Program-made: the position numbers and the translations under genes | In this document: piece after piece, positions 5,094-57,604 of the stretch | How the letters are laid out: every line of letters begins with the position of its first letter | How positions within the stretch are numbered: position 1 is the stretch's first letter | Notes under the pieces: model-generated | The model's database searches: none | Seen by the model: only the letters and a program-made list of their open reading frames with translations | Told to the model about the DNA's origin: nothing | DNA from: Deltaproteobacteria bacterium | Lineage (GTDB): Bacteria; JAEEML01 | Direction of reading: 5' to 3' | Length of the DNA stretch: 57,604 bases | Assembly: GCA_016283195.1 (NCBI GenBank) | Contig: JAEEML010000063.1 | Location: 1-57,604, forward strand

Positions 5094-8000
5094 AATCTCT
5101 TCCCCGGATTTCATTTTATCGCGCCACTCTTCCACAATGGTGTAAAGCACCGGCACCAGGCTCAAAATAAAGATGGTGGAAGCCAAAATACCAAAACTTA
5201 AGCTGACAGCCATGGGAATCATCATTTGCGCCTCGGCCGAAGTCTCGGTAATCATGGGTGCCAGGCCGCAAAAGGTGGTGACTGAGGTGAGCATGATGGG
5301 GCGGAAACGGCGCACTGCCGCCGCCTTGGCCGCTTCCATGGGGCTTAGCCCCTCTTTGCGCAGCTCGTTGGCTGTGGTGGTTAGCAAAATGGAATCGTTG
5401 ACCACCACGCCGGCCAAGGCAATGAGGCCCATATAGCTAAACATACTCATGGGCATATTAAGAAAATAGTGGGCCAGCACCGAACCGACTATGCCAAAGG
5501 GAATGGCCGACATGACCACTAGTAGCGGCTGTAAATAACTTTTGAGCGGAATGGCAATAAGCGTGTAAATAGCAATAACGGCCATAATGAGGCCCATAAT
5601 TAAAAAGCGCTGAAATTCGGCCATATCTTCCTGGCGGCCGCGCAGGCCATAAGAGAGACCATGATATTTTTGGGCGAGCCCGGGCATGACTTTGGCCGAA
5701 AATTCTTTAAAAATTTCCTGGGCATTAAAGCGCGTTTCGTCAACGGCCGCCTGCACGCGCAAATTGCGCCGCCCATCGGTGCGTGAGATGGAACGATAAG
5801 CGTGCCCCTTTTCCAGGCGGGCAGCGAGAGCCAGCGGCATTTCGCCGCCGCCGGGCGTAGTCAAAATAAAGTCATCTATAGTGGAGAGCGAGCGGCGCTC
5901 CTCCCGCGGATAACTCACCAGAACTTTTACTTCACTGCGCCCGCGCTGTTGGCGCAGAGCCTCGGCGCCATAATAAGCAGCTCTAAGCTGTGAGCCGATA
6001 TTCTGGGCCGTTAGGCCGGCATCGGCGCCCATGGGGGTAATGTGGTAACTATATTGCGGCTTGCCGTCCATTACGCCGTCATCGGCCTCTGTCACGCCGC
6101 TAAAGGTGAGCAGGGCGGCGGCGGCCTCTTTGGCGGCGGCTTCTAAAGTAGCGGTATCGCTGTGCGAAATAGTAAAATCAATGGGGCGGTTCATGCCGTG
6201 GCGGTCGGCGCTGAAAACCAGATTATCCACGCCTACTATGTGCCCCAGCTTTTTTGACCAGATACTGGCAAATTCCTTGGAAGACATGGTGCGCTCTTCC
6301 ATGGATTTTAAGAGCACGGTAACGGTTACCAAATGGCCGCCGGAAGTGCTGCTGCCGCGGCCAAAGCCCACCATGGACATAATGCCTTTGGAAATATTTT
6401 CCGGCAATTCACTAAGCGCTTCATTGGCCGCTTTAATGAGCTCTTTTTCCACCACTTTGCTCTCACTGAAGGGCGATCCGTAGGGGAGTTCCGCCTGGGC
6501 GATAACTTCGTCGCGGTCGCCGCCTGGGCGATCGATGGTTTTTATGCGCCCGCCCAGATAAAGCCCCAAAGTTATTAAGAGAATCATGATAGCCACCGAG
6601 ATGGTAGCCCAGCGGCCGCGAATGGTGAGATTGACAAATGGGGTATAATATTTATCAATAGCGGCATTAAAAAGGGTGCCGACTTTATTTGATAGCATCG
6701 TGGGTAATTTAATAAATCCGCGCGCTTTCATCGGTGTTTCGGCAATATGGGCCGGCAAAATAAAAAGCGCTTCGGCGAGGCTTATGCTTAAAACGGCGAT
6801 GACAATCACCGGAATGGCATATTGCATCTGCCCCATGCGCCCGGGAGTAAAGAGCAGCGGGGCAAAAGCCACAATAGTGGTGAGCACCGAAAAAACAATG
6901 GGTGCGGCCATTTGGCGGGTACCGATAATTGAAGCTTTTAAAGCCGGCATACCCTTTTGGCGCAGATGGTAAATATTTTCGCCTATAGAGATGGCATCAT
7001 CAACTACCATGCCGAGCACTACAATAAAGGCAAACATGGACATCATGTTAAAAGTGACGCCAAAGAAGGGGAGTAGCAAAAAGGAGCCCAAGAAAGAGAT
7101 GGGAATACCGAGCGAGACCCAAAAAGCCAGGCGCGGCTCCAAAAAGAGGCCAAGAATCACTAGCACCAGCACCAGGCCCTGGCCCAGATTTTGCATTAAA
7201 AGTTTTAAGCGGCCGCTAAACATTTTGCCCCGGTCATCCCAGGTGGTGACATGCAAAGTTTCCGGCAGGCGGCTTTTTAGCTCGTCTAAATAGGCATTCA
7301 CTGTCTGAGCTACTTCGCTGGGGGAGTAGGTGGTCATGGCATAGACGCTCAAAAAGACAGCCGGCTGGCCGTTAAAGCTGGTTTCCATATCTTGGTCATC
7401 AAAACCATCAATAATTTTAGCTAGTTCGCCGAGTTTGCGAATTTGTCCGTTGCCTTCGGTGATGATGGGGATTTCGGCAAATTCCAGGGCTCCTTCGCGC
7501 CGCTCGTTGACGCGCACCAACACTTCGCCCGTTTCGTCTTTAATGCCGCCGGCCGGGAGCTCTATGGAAGCGGTTTTTATTTTGGCGGCAATATCGGCCA
7601 GAGTGAGGCCGTATTGGCGGATAATATCTTTGGAAACTTCCACGCGGATTTCATAAGCGCTGACGCCGGAAATATCCACTGTGGAGACGCCCGTTAAATT
7701 AGTGAGCTGCTCTTGCAGATCCTCGGCGGCCATGCGCAGCTGCACATTGCTCACGTTGCCATAGATGACCATGCTGATAACACCGCGTTTTCTTTGCGGA
7801 ATACTTACTTGATAGCGCTCGGCTTCCTGCGGTAGAGAGGTGATGCGATCCACCGCGCCGCGAATATCCATCAGCGCTTTTTGCGTATCGGATCCGCGTT
7901 CCAGCTCGGCACTTATTACGGCACTGCCCTCGGAGGCGGTGGAAGTAATGCGCTTTACATGTTCCACCTCGCGCACCGCTTCTTCCACAGCCAGAATAAT

Positions 8001-51552: not shown

Positions 51553-52545
51553 TTAAGCTCCAAGCGGGGGGATAAAAGTTACTTCACTGATATGGCGGGC
51601 GCCGGTTAAGAGCATAACCAGGCGGTCAAAGCCCATGGCCATGCCGGTGGCCGGCGGCATCTCGCCAACAGCTTTTAAAAAGCGCTCATCGCTGGGCTGG
51701 GCCACCTTGCCACGGCGGCGGCGCTCAGACTCTTCCAAGGCAAAGCGGCGGCGCTGCTCCGCTTCATTTATGAGTTCCACAAAGCCGTTGGCGAGCTCAA
51801 TATCGGCCGCATAGAGCTCCACCCGCTCGGAAAGCAGCGGATTTTGGGGATCGAGGCGCGAGAGCGAAGCTAATGGCGCCGGGTAGTGAGAGACAAAATA
51901 GGGCCTATCCAGCTTTTCCAGCTCCGGATCTATCTTTTCCAGCATGAGTAGGTTAAAGACATCATCAAAGGGCATCTCGGGCAGGTGGCGACCCAAAAGT
52001 TTATGAATATGCTCCATGGGCAAATTATCCGGCGCGCACTCGCTCACTTTAAAGCCCACATATTTTTCAAAAAGCTCATCTATGGTAAAGCGGTAAAAAG
52101 GCTTATTAAGAGCTATTACGCCGTGCGCCGTTTTGAGCTCGGTAGCGCCTATGGCCGCCGCCGCCGCTTTGATGATATTTTCCGGATCTTCAAAGAGATA
52201 GCGGATATCGGCTTCGCTCCGGTACCATTCCAGCATCATAAATTCGCAAAAATGCTGGGCTGTCCACTCGTCATCGCGATAGACATGGCAAAGCTGATAA
52301 ATATTGCCCAGGCCCATGGCTAAAAGGCGCTTCATGGCAAGCTCGGGCGAAGTGTGCAAAAAGCCATTAACAAGTTTGCCCTCTTTTTTAAAGGCAATAG
52401 GCACCGGCTCAATGTGCATTTCCGGCGCGTTGGCCATAATGGCCGCCGGCGTATCCACTTCGTTAAAGCCGTTTTCGGCAAAAAAAGCGCGCACGGCACT
52501 AAGCAACTGGCTTCTTTTTAATAAAATCGGTGATGGCTTACGCAT
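51553..52545 (-). CDS. epmA: EF-P beta-lysylation enzyme EpmA (lysyl-tRNA synthetase-like)
   Basis: A 330-residue paralogue of class II lysyl-tRNA synthetase without the anticodon-binding domain, the hallmark of EpmA (GenX/PoxA). Motif 2 region reads CHVYRDDEW then CEFMMLEWYRSE, and motif 3 is GMAMGFDRLVMLLTG. It would attach beta-lysine to elongation factor P to help ribosomes through polyproline. efp and epmB are not in the window. It runs into trmB. Confidence 0.9.
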   Translation of the reverse strand: MRKPSPILLKRSQLLSAVRAFFAENGFNEVDTPAAIMANAPEMHIEPVPIAFKKEGKLVNGFLHTSPELAMKRLLAMGLGNIYQLCHVYRDDEWTAQHFCEFMMLEWYRSEADIRYLFEDPENIIKAAAAAIGATELKTAHGVIALNKPFYRFTIDELFEKYVGFKVSECAPDNLPMEHIHKLLGRHLPEMPFDDVFNLLMLEKIDPELEKLDRPYFVSHYPAPLASLSRLDPQNPLLSERVELYAADIELANGFVELINEAEQRRRFALEESERRRRGKVAQPSDERFLKAVGEMPPATGMAMGFDRLVMLLTGARHISEVTFIPPLGA

Positions 52546-52632
52546 AACAAATATTTATTCCTCATATACATGGAGCAGAGAGGTAAAAACTCATAAGCAC
52601 CATTGATATTTAAACAAACCAATTCTCAATTT

Positions 52633-52905
52633 TTAGGGGAAAATATTTATTTCCTTGGCAGCATATTTTTCAGTTGAGCGTGGTGTATCAAATACCGTTT
52701 GCATAAAAGCAGCGTCGTCGGCATTGTTGAAAAGCTCTTGTGAGCCAAGACGCCAATTATTTAGGGCTGCCTCATAGTCGGTATTATGATTTGCAAAATC
52801 CGCAAAATGGGCTTTAAGCTTTAAATAAGTAATAAATAAGCCCAATTCCGTTATATAGTCTTCCGGTAGTGCCTTTATTTCTTGTTCCAGCATTTCGTAG
52901 GTCAT
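52633..52905 (-). CDS. Small antitoxin-like protein
   Basis: A 90-residue protein. The N-terminus (MLEQEIKALPEDYITELGLFITYLKLK in shorter pieces) resembles the helical core of small DUF2281-type antitoxins, which bind a toxin encoded beside them. No toxin gene is seen next to it. GGGGGGATCG precedes the ATG. Likely a solitary or decayed module; the assignment is tentative. Confidence 0.5.
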   Translation of the reverse strand: MTYEMLEQEIKALPEDYITELGLFITYLKLKAHFADFANHNTDYEAALNNWRLGSQELFNNADDAAFMQTVFDTPRSTEKYAAKEINIFP

Positions 52906-53005
52906 CGATCCCCCCTAAGTCCAAATATTATAGCATAATGGGTTAAGGCTGCCAAGAGCGCAGATGGGCCCATGCGGAGATGGATTAATTACCTCTTTCC
53001 GCTGT

Positions 53006-54619
53006 TTAGTTCTGGCTCTTGATGCAGCGTGCGGAATAGCCGGCTTGTTTGGAAAAATAGCCCACATATATATCGTTGCCGGTAATTTTTAGAAAATACG
53101 CATAGTTGCTATCGTATGGTGAAGAAGACCATAAAGTGGCTGTTTCACCAAATTCACCATACTTCGGATAAGCTTGATACCAGTAATCACCGGCGGGAAC
53201 GGCCGTAAAGCCATAAATATCTTTGCCGCCATTCCATGTGCTAACACGTAATTTTTGGGCCGCAGTGGCATTTTCGCCGCCGAGATAAGCGATAAGTTCT
53301 TCAAATTCTTCCTTGGTTGGTAAGCGCCAGCCGCTGGGGCAAAATTCGCTGGCGCTGGCTGTAGCCCAATCGTAAAGAAGGCCATAATTATCCATGTTAT
53401 TTTGAGCACCACCCGGATAATACTTACTATCGGTTTCGCGCTTATAATTTTGGGCCATCCATTCCCGGCAGTCAATCACCACTGTGTTATATTTTTTATT
53501 ACTATCATGATCATCTTCTAGTTTACCGGTTGTGCCATCGGCGCCTAATTTGCACTGGTCGCATTTTTCGCCGAACCTATTTTTATTTTTGCACTGGTCA
53601 CAATTAGTGCCGGTAAAGGCGGCGGCGCACTCGCTGCAATCTTCGCCGTCCCAACCTGTTTGGCAAGTTCCGCTTTTGCAATTGCCGCTCTCTTTATCCA
53701 GCGTGCCGTTTTGGCAGAGAATTTTTTTGTCGCACTTGCTGCCGGTAAAGGTGTCGGCGCACTCATTACAATCTTCGCCCGTCCAGCCTGTTTGGCAAGT
53801 TCCGCTCTTGCAGTGGCCGCTTTCATCGTCTAATCTGCCGTTTTTACACAAAATTTCTTTATCGCAATCGGCGCCGGTGTAGTCATCCACACAAAAATTA
53901 CAGAGCGGCCCGGTCTTGTGCGGGTTTTGACATTCATCACAGTTTATGCCGACCCAGCCGGCTTCGCAGCTATCGGCGTGGCAATTGCCCGTCAGCGGAT
54001 TCAATAGGCCATGGCTGCACTTGATTTTTATGTTGCACTTTAAGCCGGCGTAGAACTCCCCGCAGATAAAACATTCGCCATTGCCGCTCCGCCCCTCGTG
54101 GCAGTATTCTTTATCGCCGCAGTCACATTTTTGGCAGTTTTGTCCATAATAGCCCGGCTTACACTCGGCACACTCGGCGCCGGTAAAATTAGCCGCACAT
54201 TCCTGGCAATTCTCGCCGCTAAAGCCGATGGCGCACTCAGTGCAATTTTCGCCGCCGCGGTGGCCGCTACAGGCGCAGCGGCCCTGGCCGTTACATTCCT
54301 GAAATTCGCCGCTGCAACTGCCGCGCTTTACCCCCTTACTAACGCCTTCGCAGATATGCCTTTCCGAGCATATAAGGCAATCGTCGGCGCAATCGTCATC
54401 CGTCTGGCAAATAGCCGCGCATTTGCCGTTGGGGTAGCCGCTTTTTTCTATGCAGAGGTAGCCTTCCGGGCATTTTCCGGCGGTATCGCAGGCCTGGCCG
54501 GGTTTACCTTCCGGCAATGGGCCATCGGCCTCGGCGTCGGGGTTTTCGTCCAGTAAAGCCATATCGCAGGCGGCGAGATTAAGGGCAAGCAGTAAAAGAT
54601 ATATTTTTGCCTGTTTCAT
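53006..54619 (-). CDS. EGF-repeat FISUMP lipoprotein
   Basis: A 537-residue surface lipoprotein: signal peptide with LAAC lipobox (Cys 18), an acidic linker, then about ten EGF-like Cys-rich units (CECxxGFxGxNCxEC-like; two near-identical units KSGTCQTGW-x-GEDC in tandem), and a C-terminal FISUMP domain (WMAQNYK, CPSGWRLPTKEEF, YGFTAVPAGDYW, SARCIKS). It is 9 bases after the stop of the downstream membrane piece at 54629, so it is in the same operon. The near-identical repeats could recombine. Probably involved in surface contact; unproven. Confidence 0.82.
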   Translation of the reverse strand: MKQAKIYLLLLALNLAACDMALLDENPDAEADGPLPEGKPGQACDTAGKCPEGYLCIEKSGYPNGKCAAICQTDDDCADDCLICSERHICEGVSKGVKRGSCSGEFQECNGQGRCACSGHRGGENCTECAIGFSGENCQECAANFTGAECAECKPGYYGQNCQKCDCGDKEYCHEGRSGNGECFICGEFYAGLKCNIKIKCSHGLLNPLTGNCHADSCEAGWVGINCDECQNPHKTGPLCNFCVDDYTGADCDKEILCKNGRLDDESGHCKSGTCQTGWTGEDCNECADTFTGSKCDKKILCQNGTLDKESGNCKSGTCQTGWDGEDCSECAAAFTGTNCDQCKNKNRFGEKCDQCKLGADGTTGKLEDDHDSNKKYNTVVIDCREWMAQNYKRETDSKYYPGGAQNNMDNYGLLYDWATASASEFCPSGWRLPTKEEFEELIAYLGGENATAAQKLRVSTWNGGKDIYGFTAVPAGDYWYQAYPKYGEFGETATLWSSSPYDSNYAYFLKITGNDIYVGYFSKQAGYSARCIKSQN

Positions 54620-54628
54620 AATAGTTCC

Positions 54629-54862
54629 CTAAAAGGTGATAGCCAGCACCAGTGAGCTCTCTTCTTTGCCGATAGCCGGTAGCACTGTTACTTGCGTTTC
54701 CTTTAACTTAGCCAGTTTATGCTTGGTGCGCACATGCAAAGCGCCCAAAACAATGGAAGAGATAACAGCGGCACTGCCCAGGGCAATAAGTACGGATCCG
54801 GCGGCCTGGTTTTTCTCCCAGGCATTTTCCAGATTTTGTAAATATAACATGCTATCCAGCAT
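54629..54862 (-). CDS. C-terminal part of the frameshifted FISUMP membrane protein
   Basis: A 77-residue piece with one hydrophobic helix (SVLIALGSAAVISSIVLGAL) and a basic tail. Its frame stays open upstream through KQYERYNNPQ to the T8 run at 54906-54913, where it meets the frame of the FISUMP gene with one base removed. The ATG at 54862 has no ribosome site. So this is best seen as the end of the upstream gene. Stop TAG at 54629-54631. Confidence 0.7.
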   Translation of the reverse strand: MLDSMLYLQNLENAWEKNQAAGSVLIALGSAAVISSIVLGALHVRTKHKLAKLKETQVTVLPAIGKEESSLVLAITF

Positions 54863-54890
54863 TTGCGGATTATTATAGCGCTCATACTGC

Positions 54891-55607
54891 TTATTGGAGG
54901 CAGCTAAAAAAAATCGACCCGCCGATAAAGCCGGTGAGCCCGCCGACGAGGCCGATAGTTAAACTGCTGGCCAGAAAGGCCTTCTTTTGCTTCTCATAGT
55001 GGATAATACTCTGCCGACGCTCCGCCGCCAGCTCGGCTTCCCCCGAGCCCATAACGCAGCGCACCGAGAGGTAGCTCACCTTTTTGCCGCTATTGACCGT
55101 GACTTTGTTGCTATCCACATAGAGGCCATAGGCCTGGCCGGCGTTGCGCTCAGTATTTGCCCAAAAATAGGCGGCGCTGGCAAAGGGGGCACAGCCATCC
55201 TTATCACAATAGCCCACCGGCAAAGCGCCAAAGCCGGTGCTGTTTTTAGCTTCATCCCACTTTGGGTGCCTTACACTATCCGAAGCTCTGATACCTTTGC
55301 CGATGGTGCCTATGAGGCGGTCAAATTCTACTTTTGTCGGCAGGTGCCAGCCGGCAGGGCAGACTTTACGCGCATCGGCCCAATTATATAAATAGCCATA
55401 TTCATCGGGACGCTTGCTCTCTTTGTAATCAATATCGGCGTTTATGTATTTCATATTTTCGGCAAGCCAAGTCCCGCCGCCAATTTGCACTGTTTTATAG
55501 GTATTGCCGTCGCGGCTATCGGTAAAGGAGCCGTATTCCTGGGCCAGCGCCGGGGCCGCGGTAAGCATAAAAGATAATAACGCGGTTTTTATCAAAAAAT
55601 TATACAT
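54891..55607 (-). CDS. FISUMP-domain membrane protein, frameshifted at a poly-T run
   Basis: A 238-residue product in the given frame, ending in SIFFSCLQ after a run of eight T on the minus strand. The N-terminal signal peptide (cleavage near ALAQE) is followed by a FISUMP domain (TDSRDGNTYKT, WLAENMKY, CPAGWHLPTKVEF, SVRCVMG) and a hydrophobic helix (LTIGLVGGLTGFIGGSIFF). With seven T instead of eight, the frame continues LAASNKQYER… to the stop at 54629, giving a 325-residue protein with a second membrane helix. Both parts look well kept. AGGTG precedes the ATG. Indel, phase variation, programmed slippage or sequencing error are all possible. Confidence 0.75.
   Translation of the reverse strand: MYNFLIKTALLSFMLTAAPALAQEYGSFTDSRDGNTYKTVQIGGGTWLAENMKYINADIDYKESKRPDEYGYLYNWADARKVCPAGWHLPTKVEFDRLIGTIGKGIRASDSVRHPKWDEAKNSTGFGALPVGYCDKDGCAPFASAAYFWANTERNAGQAYGLYVDSNKVTVNSGKKVSYLSVRCVMGSGEAELAAERRQSIIHYEKQKKAFLASSLTIGLVGGLTGFIGGSIFFSCLQ
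54906..54913 (-). other. T8 homopolymer at the frameshift site
   Basis: Eight A on the plus strand (T on the coding strand) between CGA and AGCTG. This is the only place where the two halves of the FISUMP membrane gene can be joined by a single-base change. Confidence 0.85.
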
Positions 55608-55758
55608 ATCAGCACCTAAAAAAGGCCGGCCAGCATTTGGGCACGCCGGAAATAAACAAATGAATTTTTATAATAAAAGGCCGGTTCTTGGCAAGAGCGC
55701 ATAGAAGCATAGATATTTAACAATTAGTGGCCCAAAATTTCGGGTACCTAAACCGCCC

Positions 55759-55796
55759 TTGACTTTCGACCAATTTGGAGTCACACTCCAAATCGG
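55759..55796 (+). promoter_or_regulatory. Long dyad operator next to a -35-like element
   Basis: TTGACT (55759-55764) precedes the dyad ATTTGGAGT-CAC-ACTCCAAAT (55773-55793), perfect over 9-bp arms, extending to 12-bp arms with one mismatch (CC/GG). Downstream lie TATAAA (55811-55816) and the start of a broken gene at 55830. A -10 at the proper distance from the TTGACT is not clear. Confidence 0.6.
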
Positions 55797-55829
55797 TTGG
55801 ACTTAGTATGTATAAATTCGGGGGCTCCC

Positions 55830-56104
55830 ATGCGAGAGAATAGCGACTGGATTTCCGCTGCTCTTAGCCGATGAGGTGCGCCTTTGGCCCTTTACTCTGC
55901 GCCGTGAGCTCTTTGTGGTTAGTATCGCTTTACTGGCCATTGGAGGAATAAGCGGCGGCTATTTGCGCGGTGCAGCATGCCCCGACGGATTATTACCACA
56001 CCCGCCGCGACACCGGGGATAATATAAACCCGGAAGGGATACGCCTTACAGCGGAGCTCGTAAAAAAGGCTGTGCAACTATATGACGAGCAGGACACTCT
56101 TTAG
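55830..56104 (+). pseudogene. Broken small membrane-protein gene
   Basis: Starts MRENSD in one frame, shifts near 55848 to GFPLLLADEVRLWPFTLRR and a hydrophobic helix (LFVVSIALLAIGG), then shifts again near 55969 to VQHAPTDYYHTRRDTGDN and ends …LYDEQDTL at TAG 56102-56104. With two one-base changes it would be about 91 residues with one membrane helix. The parts are too protein-like for chance. It is preceded by the dyad operator. Family not recognised. Confidence 0.5.
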
Positions 56105-56148
56105 CCGCAAGGTCTATTTTTCGCTTCTCTCACCAGCCGGCCACATTT

Positions 56149-56250
56149 GACCTCACCCCACAAAATGTTTGTAAATTCATGAAGATTGGCCCCTCCCCAC
56201 TGTGGGGAGGGGCGAGAGGATGTAATTTCTTTTATGGACGGGGCGAGGTC
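56149..56250. repeat. 102-bp MITE-like repeat, copy 2
   Basis: Same element as at 16599-16700. The left end GACCTCACCC is preceded by CCACATTT; the right end GGGCGAGGTC differs at one base from a perfect inverted repeat. The internal palindrome is unchanged. It lies between the broken gene and the promoter of the serine hydrolase. Confidence 0.8.
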
Positions 56251-56287
56251 TGCGCTTACGCCGCAGGCGATCTGGTGAATAAAGCAG

Positions 56288-56316
56288 GTGACAAAGACAT
56301 TCTAAAAGCGTATAAT
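56288..56316 (+). promoter_or_regulatory. Promoter of the serine hydrolase gene
   Basis: GTGACA (56288-56293), 17 bases, TATAAT (56311-56316). The leader is about 75-80 bases to the ATG at 56401, with GAGG upstream of it. Confidence 0.65.
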
Positions 56317-56400
56317 ACTATGCTTGGTGGAGGGAAGAAGCCGGTACGCCTCTCCTCGTCCTACTTTTTTAAATTTTTAACCCCAAACGAGGTAATTTAG

Positions 56401-57604
56401 ATGAAAAAAGTCCTTATCGGTTTTGCTGTTCTTTTTCTGGCTTTTGTGGCCACAGTCATTCTTTCCTTCTTTATGTGCAATAATAAAACCGAGCCCAGCG
56501 CTATTAAAATTACGCCGCTTGAGCAGGTTAATAAAAGGCATTACCACTTTCAGGATGAAGAATCAGCCGCATCCAAAGCGGGGCTGGAGCTGGTGGCGCC
56601 CATTGCTCAGCAATATATAGATGCCAAAAAGGATTTGGGCATCATCTTGGCAGTTGTCACTCCCGACGGCGTCTCCACCAAAAGTTTTGGTTCACTGGAG
56701 AGTGATGAGCCCTACGAAGAGCTTTATGGGGAAATCGGCAGCCTCACCAAACCCTTTGTCGGCCTGGCTTTTGCCTCGCTCATCAATGACGGAGTAGTTA
56801 AGGCCGATACCAAACTAGCCGAATGCCTGCCCAAAGGCGTTACGATTAATGGCATAGAAAACATAACTTTAGCTATGCTGGCTGCTCATATTGCCGGTAT
56901 TCCGAGGCTCCCCAAGGCGATAGCCGATAAGGCCGATACGCCTCAGCCCTACGCCGATTTTAGTGATATGGATGTCTTTACTGCGCTAAAAACCGCCAAA
57001 TTAAATAGCCCGGGCTACTATGAATACAGCAACTGGGGCGCCGCGCTTTTGGCTCAGGCTCTCACAATATGCGCCGGCGAAGAATCCTGGGAAACATTAA
57101 TTGCTAACCGGGTTACCAAAGTGCTGCGCCTAAAGGATATTAAGACAGAGGCCAGCCCCTTAATGCAAGGGCATGATGCTAGTCTTAAACCGGTTCCTGA
57201 TTGGCACTTTAAGGGCATGGGACCGGCCGGCGCCCTTAAGGCTAATATCAAAGATTTGGCCAAACTTGCTCAAATGATGATTTCCGATGATGAATTTGCC
57301 GGCAAGGAGATGATTAAGACCTCTTTAACCAAAATTCATTCAATCGGTCAGCTGGAGTCGGCCTTGCATGTAAAAACTTTTGGCGCTGTCGGCTTATTCT
57401 GGCACATGGGCAGCGGAGTTATTTGGGAAGCAACTATGGAAAAGCCAGAGACTAAAGAAGCGCTACACCATTTCGTTTTCCACAATGGGCAAACCGCCGG
57501 GGCCACCAGCGGCCTGGCCGTTATCCCCGAAAAGAAAATCGGTATTGTCATGCTGTCAAATACAGCTAGCCCCACAACTTCTTTTATAGTCTCCTTTTAT
57601 GGCC
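56401..57604 (+). CDS. Beta-lactamase-fold serine hydrolase, 3' end outside window
   Basis: I translated it by hand: open from 56401 to the end of the window, at least 401 codons. An N-terminal membrane anchor (residues 1-26) precedes the catalytic domain. The active-site SLTK is near residue 114 in IGSLTKPFVGLA, YSN near 208 (YYEYSNWG), and HNG near 361 (FHNGQTAGATSG), the three motifs of class C beta-lactamase-like/penicillin-binding esterases. It is extracytoplasmic. The substrate (peptide, ester or beta-lactam) is not shown. GAGG precedes the ATG, and the promoter is at 56288-56316. Confidence 0.85.
   Translation, partial: MKKVLIGFAVLFLAFVATVILSFFMCNNKTEPSAIKITPLEQVNKRHYHFQDEESAASKAGLELVAPIAQQYIDAKKDLGIILAVVTPDGVSTKSFGSLESDEPYEELYGEIGSLTKPFVGLAFASLINDGVVKADTKLAECLPKGVTINGIENITLAMLAAHIAGIPRLPKAIADKADTPQPYADFSDMDVFTALKTAKLNSPGYYEYSNWGAALLAQALTICAGEESWETLIANRVTKVLRLKDIKTEASPLMQGHDASLKPVPDWHFKGMGPAGALKANIKDLAKLAQMMISDDEFAGKEMIKTSLTKIHSIGQLESALHVKTFGAVGLFWHMGSGVIWEATMEKPETKEALHHFVFHNGQTAGATSGLAVIPEKKIGIVMLSNTASPTTSFIVSFYG

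Follow-up and report, generated by a model that had tools for sequence, protein, structure and literature searches.

A FISUMP-domain gene on the minus strand of the window, the whole 57,604-base stretch that was analysed, is divided into two frames by one base in a run of eight Ts. A recent one-base expansion of that run, as a real mutation or as a consensus error and without a regulated switch, very probably accounts for the break. The locus would be one copy in this genome's family of proteins built from a signal peptide, a FISUMP domain and a two-helix tail, and a single slip in the T run would have added a T, either in the cell or in the reads or consensus. The chance that the extra T is a real mutation in the cell comes just short of even; a read or consensus error is a serious possibility that we place rather below even. 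If the slip took place in the cell, the copy would be a recent loss-of-function (null) or truncation allele, and its product would be a 238-residue protein that keeps the lectin-like domain and the first helix but lacks the second helix and the tail.

The interrupted gene and its parts

The break had been described in a sequence-only reading as a single-base change at a T8 run that joins two well-kept halves of one gene, and re-reading of the sequence confirmed the run, both frames and the length of the joined protein. The run lies at positions 54906-54913 and reads as T8 in the sense strand (minus) and as A8 on the plus strand. The upstream frame ends in IFFSCLQ*, with its stop four codons past the run, and a single four-letter step at the run yields one frame of 325 residues. 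The features of the locus are as follows.

54891-55607, minus strand: upstream open frame, 238 aa, covering the signal peptide, the FISUMP domain, a linker and the first of the membrane helices (ORF; TIGR02145; PF09603)
55542-55607, minus strand: predicted signal peptide, residues 1-22 (from hydropathy, with A-L-A seen by eye just ahead of residue 23)
55050-55529, minus strand: FISUMP / Fib_succ_major domain, residues 27-186 (TIGR02145; model pLDDT; weak C-type-lectin-like matches)
54899-54980, minus strand: predicted membrane helix 1 (residues 210-236 in the joined protein), spanning the T8 run (Kyte-Doolittle)
54906-54913, minus strand: T8 run, site of the frame break, A8 on the plus strand (sequence)
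54629-54910, minus strand: downstream frame, 93 aa and stop, in a different reading frame from the upstream ORF and encoding the loop, the second membrane helix and the conserved tail at the C-terminus (ORF; paralogues C2, C46 and C75)
54737-54793, minus strand: predicted membrane helix 2 (residues 272-290 in the joined protein) (Kyte-Doolittle)
53006-54619, minus strand: next gene downstream, encoding 537 aa with a FISUMP domain and EGF-like Cys repeats (ORF and profile matches)

By the curated cut-offs of TIGR02145 and PF09603, the upstream ORF encodes a FISUMP domain protein. The TIGR02145 match is full-length, covering residues 27-186 with E=1.2e-38 and 133.6 bits (cut-off 41.65), and PF09603 matched with E=8.1e-25 and 88.6 bits (cut-off 33.9). 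The downstream 93-aa frame had no Pfam or NCBIfam match. A Kyte-Doolittle profile of the 325-residue read-through protein placed the signal peptide at about residues 4-22 and further hydrophobic segments at residues 210-236 and 272-290, which bears out the two membrane helices that had been claimed for the joined protein. The signal peptide was called from hydropathy and by eye.

A structural model of the read-through protein, built with 24 sequences, had a mean pLDDT of 75.7, with every ten-residue block of the domain above 80 and low values in the tail. The fold search returned weak C-type-lectin-like matches, the best being the C-terminal domain of Legionella Lcl (E=0.006) and none reaching E<=0.001; a sequence search of solved structures found nothing. 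The available text of PMC4619616 lists one FISUMP-domain protein for the cell envelope of Fibrobacter succinogenes. The product is most naturally read as a putative exported, membrane-anchored binding protein.

The 537-aa neighbour begins 10 bases past the stop codon of the tail on the same strand and forms part of the context, outside the break. It carries Cys-rich EGF-like repeats, with EGF_laminin slightly below its cut-off, and its FISUMP domain is C-terminal.

Paralogues and the ancestral frame

The 3.22-Mb genome (190 contigs) contains 114 FISUMP (PF09603) matches, and this number, together with a tail common to several paralogues, makes the family a context of wider interest than the break itself. 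Some genes of the genome carry repeated FISUMP domains (the window is locus C96 in our numbering). FISUMP domains are known targets of diversity-generating retroelements (DGRs) elsewhere, as the available text of PMC4159848 states. Separately, two reverse-transcriptase matches above cut-off (L191 = C156 and L192 = C172) and one weak match were seen in the genome, and NCBIfam hits on the scanned stretches of C156 and C172 were all under the curated cut-offs.

The tail was closest to that of C2 (54% identity, E=6e-26), followed by C46 (42%, E=5e-19) and C75 (47% over 57 aa, E=7e-9), with weaker matches in C70, C126, C104 and C59 (E=0.004-0.011). Two other hits, C163 and C103, were rejected as chance, their frames looking by eye permease-like and type II secretion-like. 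Six genes combine one or more FISUMP domains with a related two-helix tail in a single open frame, namely C46, C75, C59, C70, C104 and C139; in this set the tail of C139 was recognised by eye and is absent from the tail similarity search, and C70, C104 and C59 matched only at the weaker level. C2 (L010) and C126 (L014) are signal-peptide proteins that have the two-helix tail without a FISUMP domain, and from its presence there the tail looks like a separate module.

Comparison with relatives, which the sequence-only reading had proposed as a check, was informative within this genome, where the paralogues are continuous across the joint. Against C2 and C46 the two halves in the window align with no gap where they meet, which together with the three strong tail matches puts their union beyond chance; in C75 most of the loop that follows is missing. 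At the joint the codons are GCC TTT TTA GCC in C2 and ATT TTT TTT AGC in the window, which makes the long frame homologous to C2 codon by codon. Since TTT TTA GCC in C2 stands opposite TTT TTT AGC in the window, and since the paralogues have a single frame, the long frame is ancestral and the window carries one extra T. Judged from the aligned codons, the comparison shows the single-frame layout to be the ancestral one, with the window copy one base too long in the T run over the first-helix codons.

The tail is not visibly decayed, as judged from its codons, 93 of which run without a stop. Between the window tail and C2, differences at the three codon positions were 0.41/0.20/0.52 (93 codons), similar to the 0.37/0.24/0.55 (92 codons) of the intact pair C2 and C46, and residue identities are 50/93 for the window and C2, 50/92 for C2 and C46, and 39/92 for the window and C46. 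An undecayed tail whose divergence is like that of the intact pair argues that the break is young or not real. Homologues run through the break and no second copy is broken there, a pattern that fits a singleton frameshift. The available text of PMC3711429 explains singleton frameshifts by recent indels or by sequencing errors. Where BLASTp confirms them it expects errors, not real indels, and this expectation adds weight to a consensus error here. The choice between T8 and T7 at this site rests on one assembled sequence, and a recent indel or an error is, from the alignments, the most likely explanation. For annotation the case is a caution, in that one base turns a conserved gene into two calls.

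Beyond this genome, searches of 58 other genomes, genome_contigs and viral_contigs gave no convincing tail relative. The 58 genomes, whose kinship with this one is at domain level only, gave two weak hits, at E=0.001 (with an internal stop) and E=0.06. The FISUMP half had 30 relatives in genome_contigs at 25-41% identity, and when these 30 loci were searched with the tail by tblastn, the single hit up to E=1 had E=0.58. So far, then, the two-helix tail appears, by sequence similarity, only in paralogues of this genome.

Homopolymer runs and split genes across the genome

The base rate of run-split genes was estimated in 141 loci (C1-C141) of at most 20 kb each, with the window taken whole, for a total of 1,806,332 bases (including 13,244 N) of the 3.22 Mb. 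Gene calls for the run statistics were crude calls based on codon usage and made by our own script. Runs of at least 7, taken on both strands of these 1.81 Mb, provided 1892 run-strand tests, and five passed the frame-joining filter. Four of the five are apparent ordinary gene starts (L127 checked in full, the other three from 30-base context), and the T8 run at 54906-54913 was the sole gene-splitting run in the whole set of tests. Of the 188 A/T runs of at least 8 in the examined sequence, a single one was seen to break a gene, which disfavours widespread homopolymer consensus error of the kind seen in uncorrected long reads.

A second scan, guided by paralogues, covered 121 loci. A stricter first filter gave five joints and missed the window, and the spacing was then widened, guided by the layout of the window. 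The widened scan gave eight joints, and only the window had frames that were both overlapping and out of frame. Three of the other seven were neighbouring or tandem genes by their spacing (L053 and two in L135), and four were in-frame stops: TAA in C61, TGA in C70, TGA in C2 and TAG in C78. Those in C61 (L101, about position 7473), C70 (L110, about 4804) and C78 (L118, about 2881) lie in FISUMP-family genes, with recognisable sequence on both sides. These three stops suggest that the family is still decaying or that the consensus is wrong at these sites, and they make real decay among FISUMP genes also plausible.

Expected run counts were obtained from 20 synonymous shuffles of 1438 crudely called genes. 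Sense T8 runs were observed 21 times against 61 expected (range 47-70), and runs of nine or more Ts were absent where 25 were expected. For As the counts were 99 against 136 at length eight and 4 against 63 at nine or more. Selection seems to act against long A/T runs in genes, which are depleted from length 8-9 up, and the T8 depletion suggests that such runs are slippery in this organism. The usual slippage threshold given in the available text of PMC1088944 is nine, which is consistent with the depletion seen here.

Alternative explanations and known systems

The original interpretation is partly supported: the one-base break in an otherwise well-preserved gene for a FISUMP membrane protein stands, and sequencing error, its own simplest alternative, stays viable. 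The proposal of phase variation or programmed slippage found no positive support and is unlikely on the evidence that follows.

Phase variation would have the T run slip in replication between T7 (long) and T8 (short), switching the membrane tail of a surface protein. We consider this quite unlikely, and the specific case of a lectin-like surface protein toggled between a long form with the two-helix tail and a short form with a single helix very unlikely. The product is predicted to be an exported or surface protein, a class that is commonly phase-variable according to the available text of PMC3711429; a one-base change in the run does toggle the long and short frames; and depletion of T8 runs in genes is what would be expected of slipping runs. 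Against it, the FISUMP genes (53 of the 1438 called genes, being those recognised by one phmmer query) are not enriched in long A/T runs, with 1 run of T8 or more, the window's own, against 2.5 expected and 3 runs of A8 or more against 5.9. None of the eight paralogues keeps the run, since no A or T run longer than 5 was found near the joint (longest 2-5 within 54 bases); this comparison is within paralogues only, and the joint was placed by eye in those other than C2 and C46. Mismatch-repair domains are present and sit in long open frames, with MutS in C116 (952 aa) and, by a weaker match, in C184 (814 aa), and MutL in C153 (615 aa). At eight Ts, the run at the frame break would be short for a contingency tract. 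Were the run variable in the population, it would give simple on/off control of a surface lectin.

Programmed slippage, in which a base of the run is skipped in transcription by RNA polymerase or in translation by the ribosome, so that one gene yields a short and a long protein, is more improbable still. Both frames are open at the run and both halves are well kept, a weak 6-pair stem lies ahead of the run, and precedents in the available text of PMC1088944 are Thermus dnaX, which slips at nine As, and Shigella mxiE, which does so on a U run. The slippery run, however, is missing in 8/8 paralogues. Terminator-like sites in 52500-56500 numbered 4 against 6.1 in shuffles, the upstream stem is no more than chance would give, and the folding of a 96-base RNA around the run was unremarkable (z=0.64). 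A stimulatory RNA structure is not needed in every known case of slippage or frameshifting. The direction of the shift also counts against slippage, for rejoining the frames takes the loss of one base (or the gain of two), and a single T gained gives TTT TTT TAG and an immediate stop. At A/T runs most transcription errors are insertions, and in E. coli fewer than 1% of transcription deletions begin inside uninterrupted runs (PMC5574713, in the text available). The same source reports that in Buchnera 21% of deletions begin in runs and that deletions increase with run length, a pattern that counts against our dismissal of slippage. Productive slippage at eight As has also been inferred for IS elements of Deinococcus and Nostoc in the available text of PMC1088944, which also cites slippage at eight As in a human gene, so run length alone does not dismiss T8.

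A reading as two genes, one for a FISUMP protein and one for a small membrane protein of 77 aa that starts at an ATG at 54862 in the downstream frame, can hardly be credited, since that ATG sits within a stretch conserved on both sides in C2 and C46 (NPQMLDSMLYL), has no Shine-Dalgarno-like stretch ahead of it by eye, and belongs to a layout that is a single frame in the FISUMP-plus-tail paralogues.

A recent one-base expansion of the T run remains the preferred explanation. Like other FISUMP / Fib_succ_major proteins (TIGR02145, PF09603), the product has a full-length domain and a signal peptide and belongs to a large paralogous family; the window gene adds a C-terminal two-helix tail and has its frame broken in that tail. 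The singleton frameshifted genes of PMC3711429, as far as its available text describes them, share one broken copy, continuous homologues and no conserved frameshift site, and the only notable difference is that the break in the window falls within a homopolymer. In mxiE, as presented in the available text of PMC1088944, two overlapping frames likewise meet at a T or A run, but the change there is a one-base insertion, whereas the window needs a deletion and its run of 8 is not conserved. The run in Thermus dnaX, from the same text, is nine As, against eight bases in the window.
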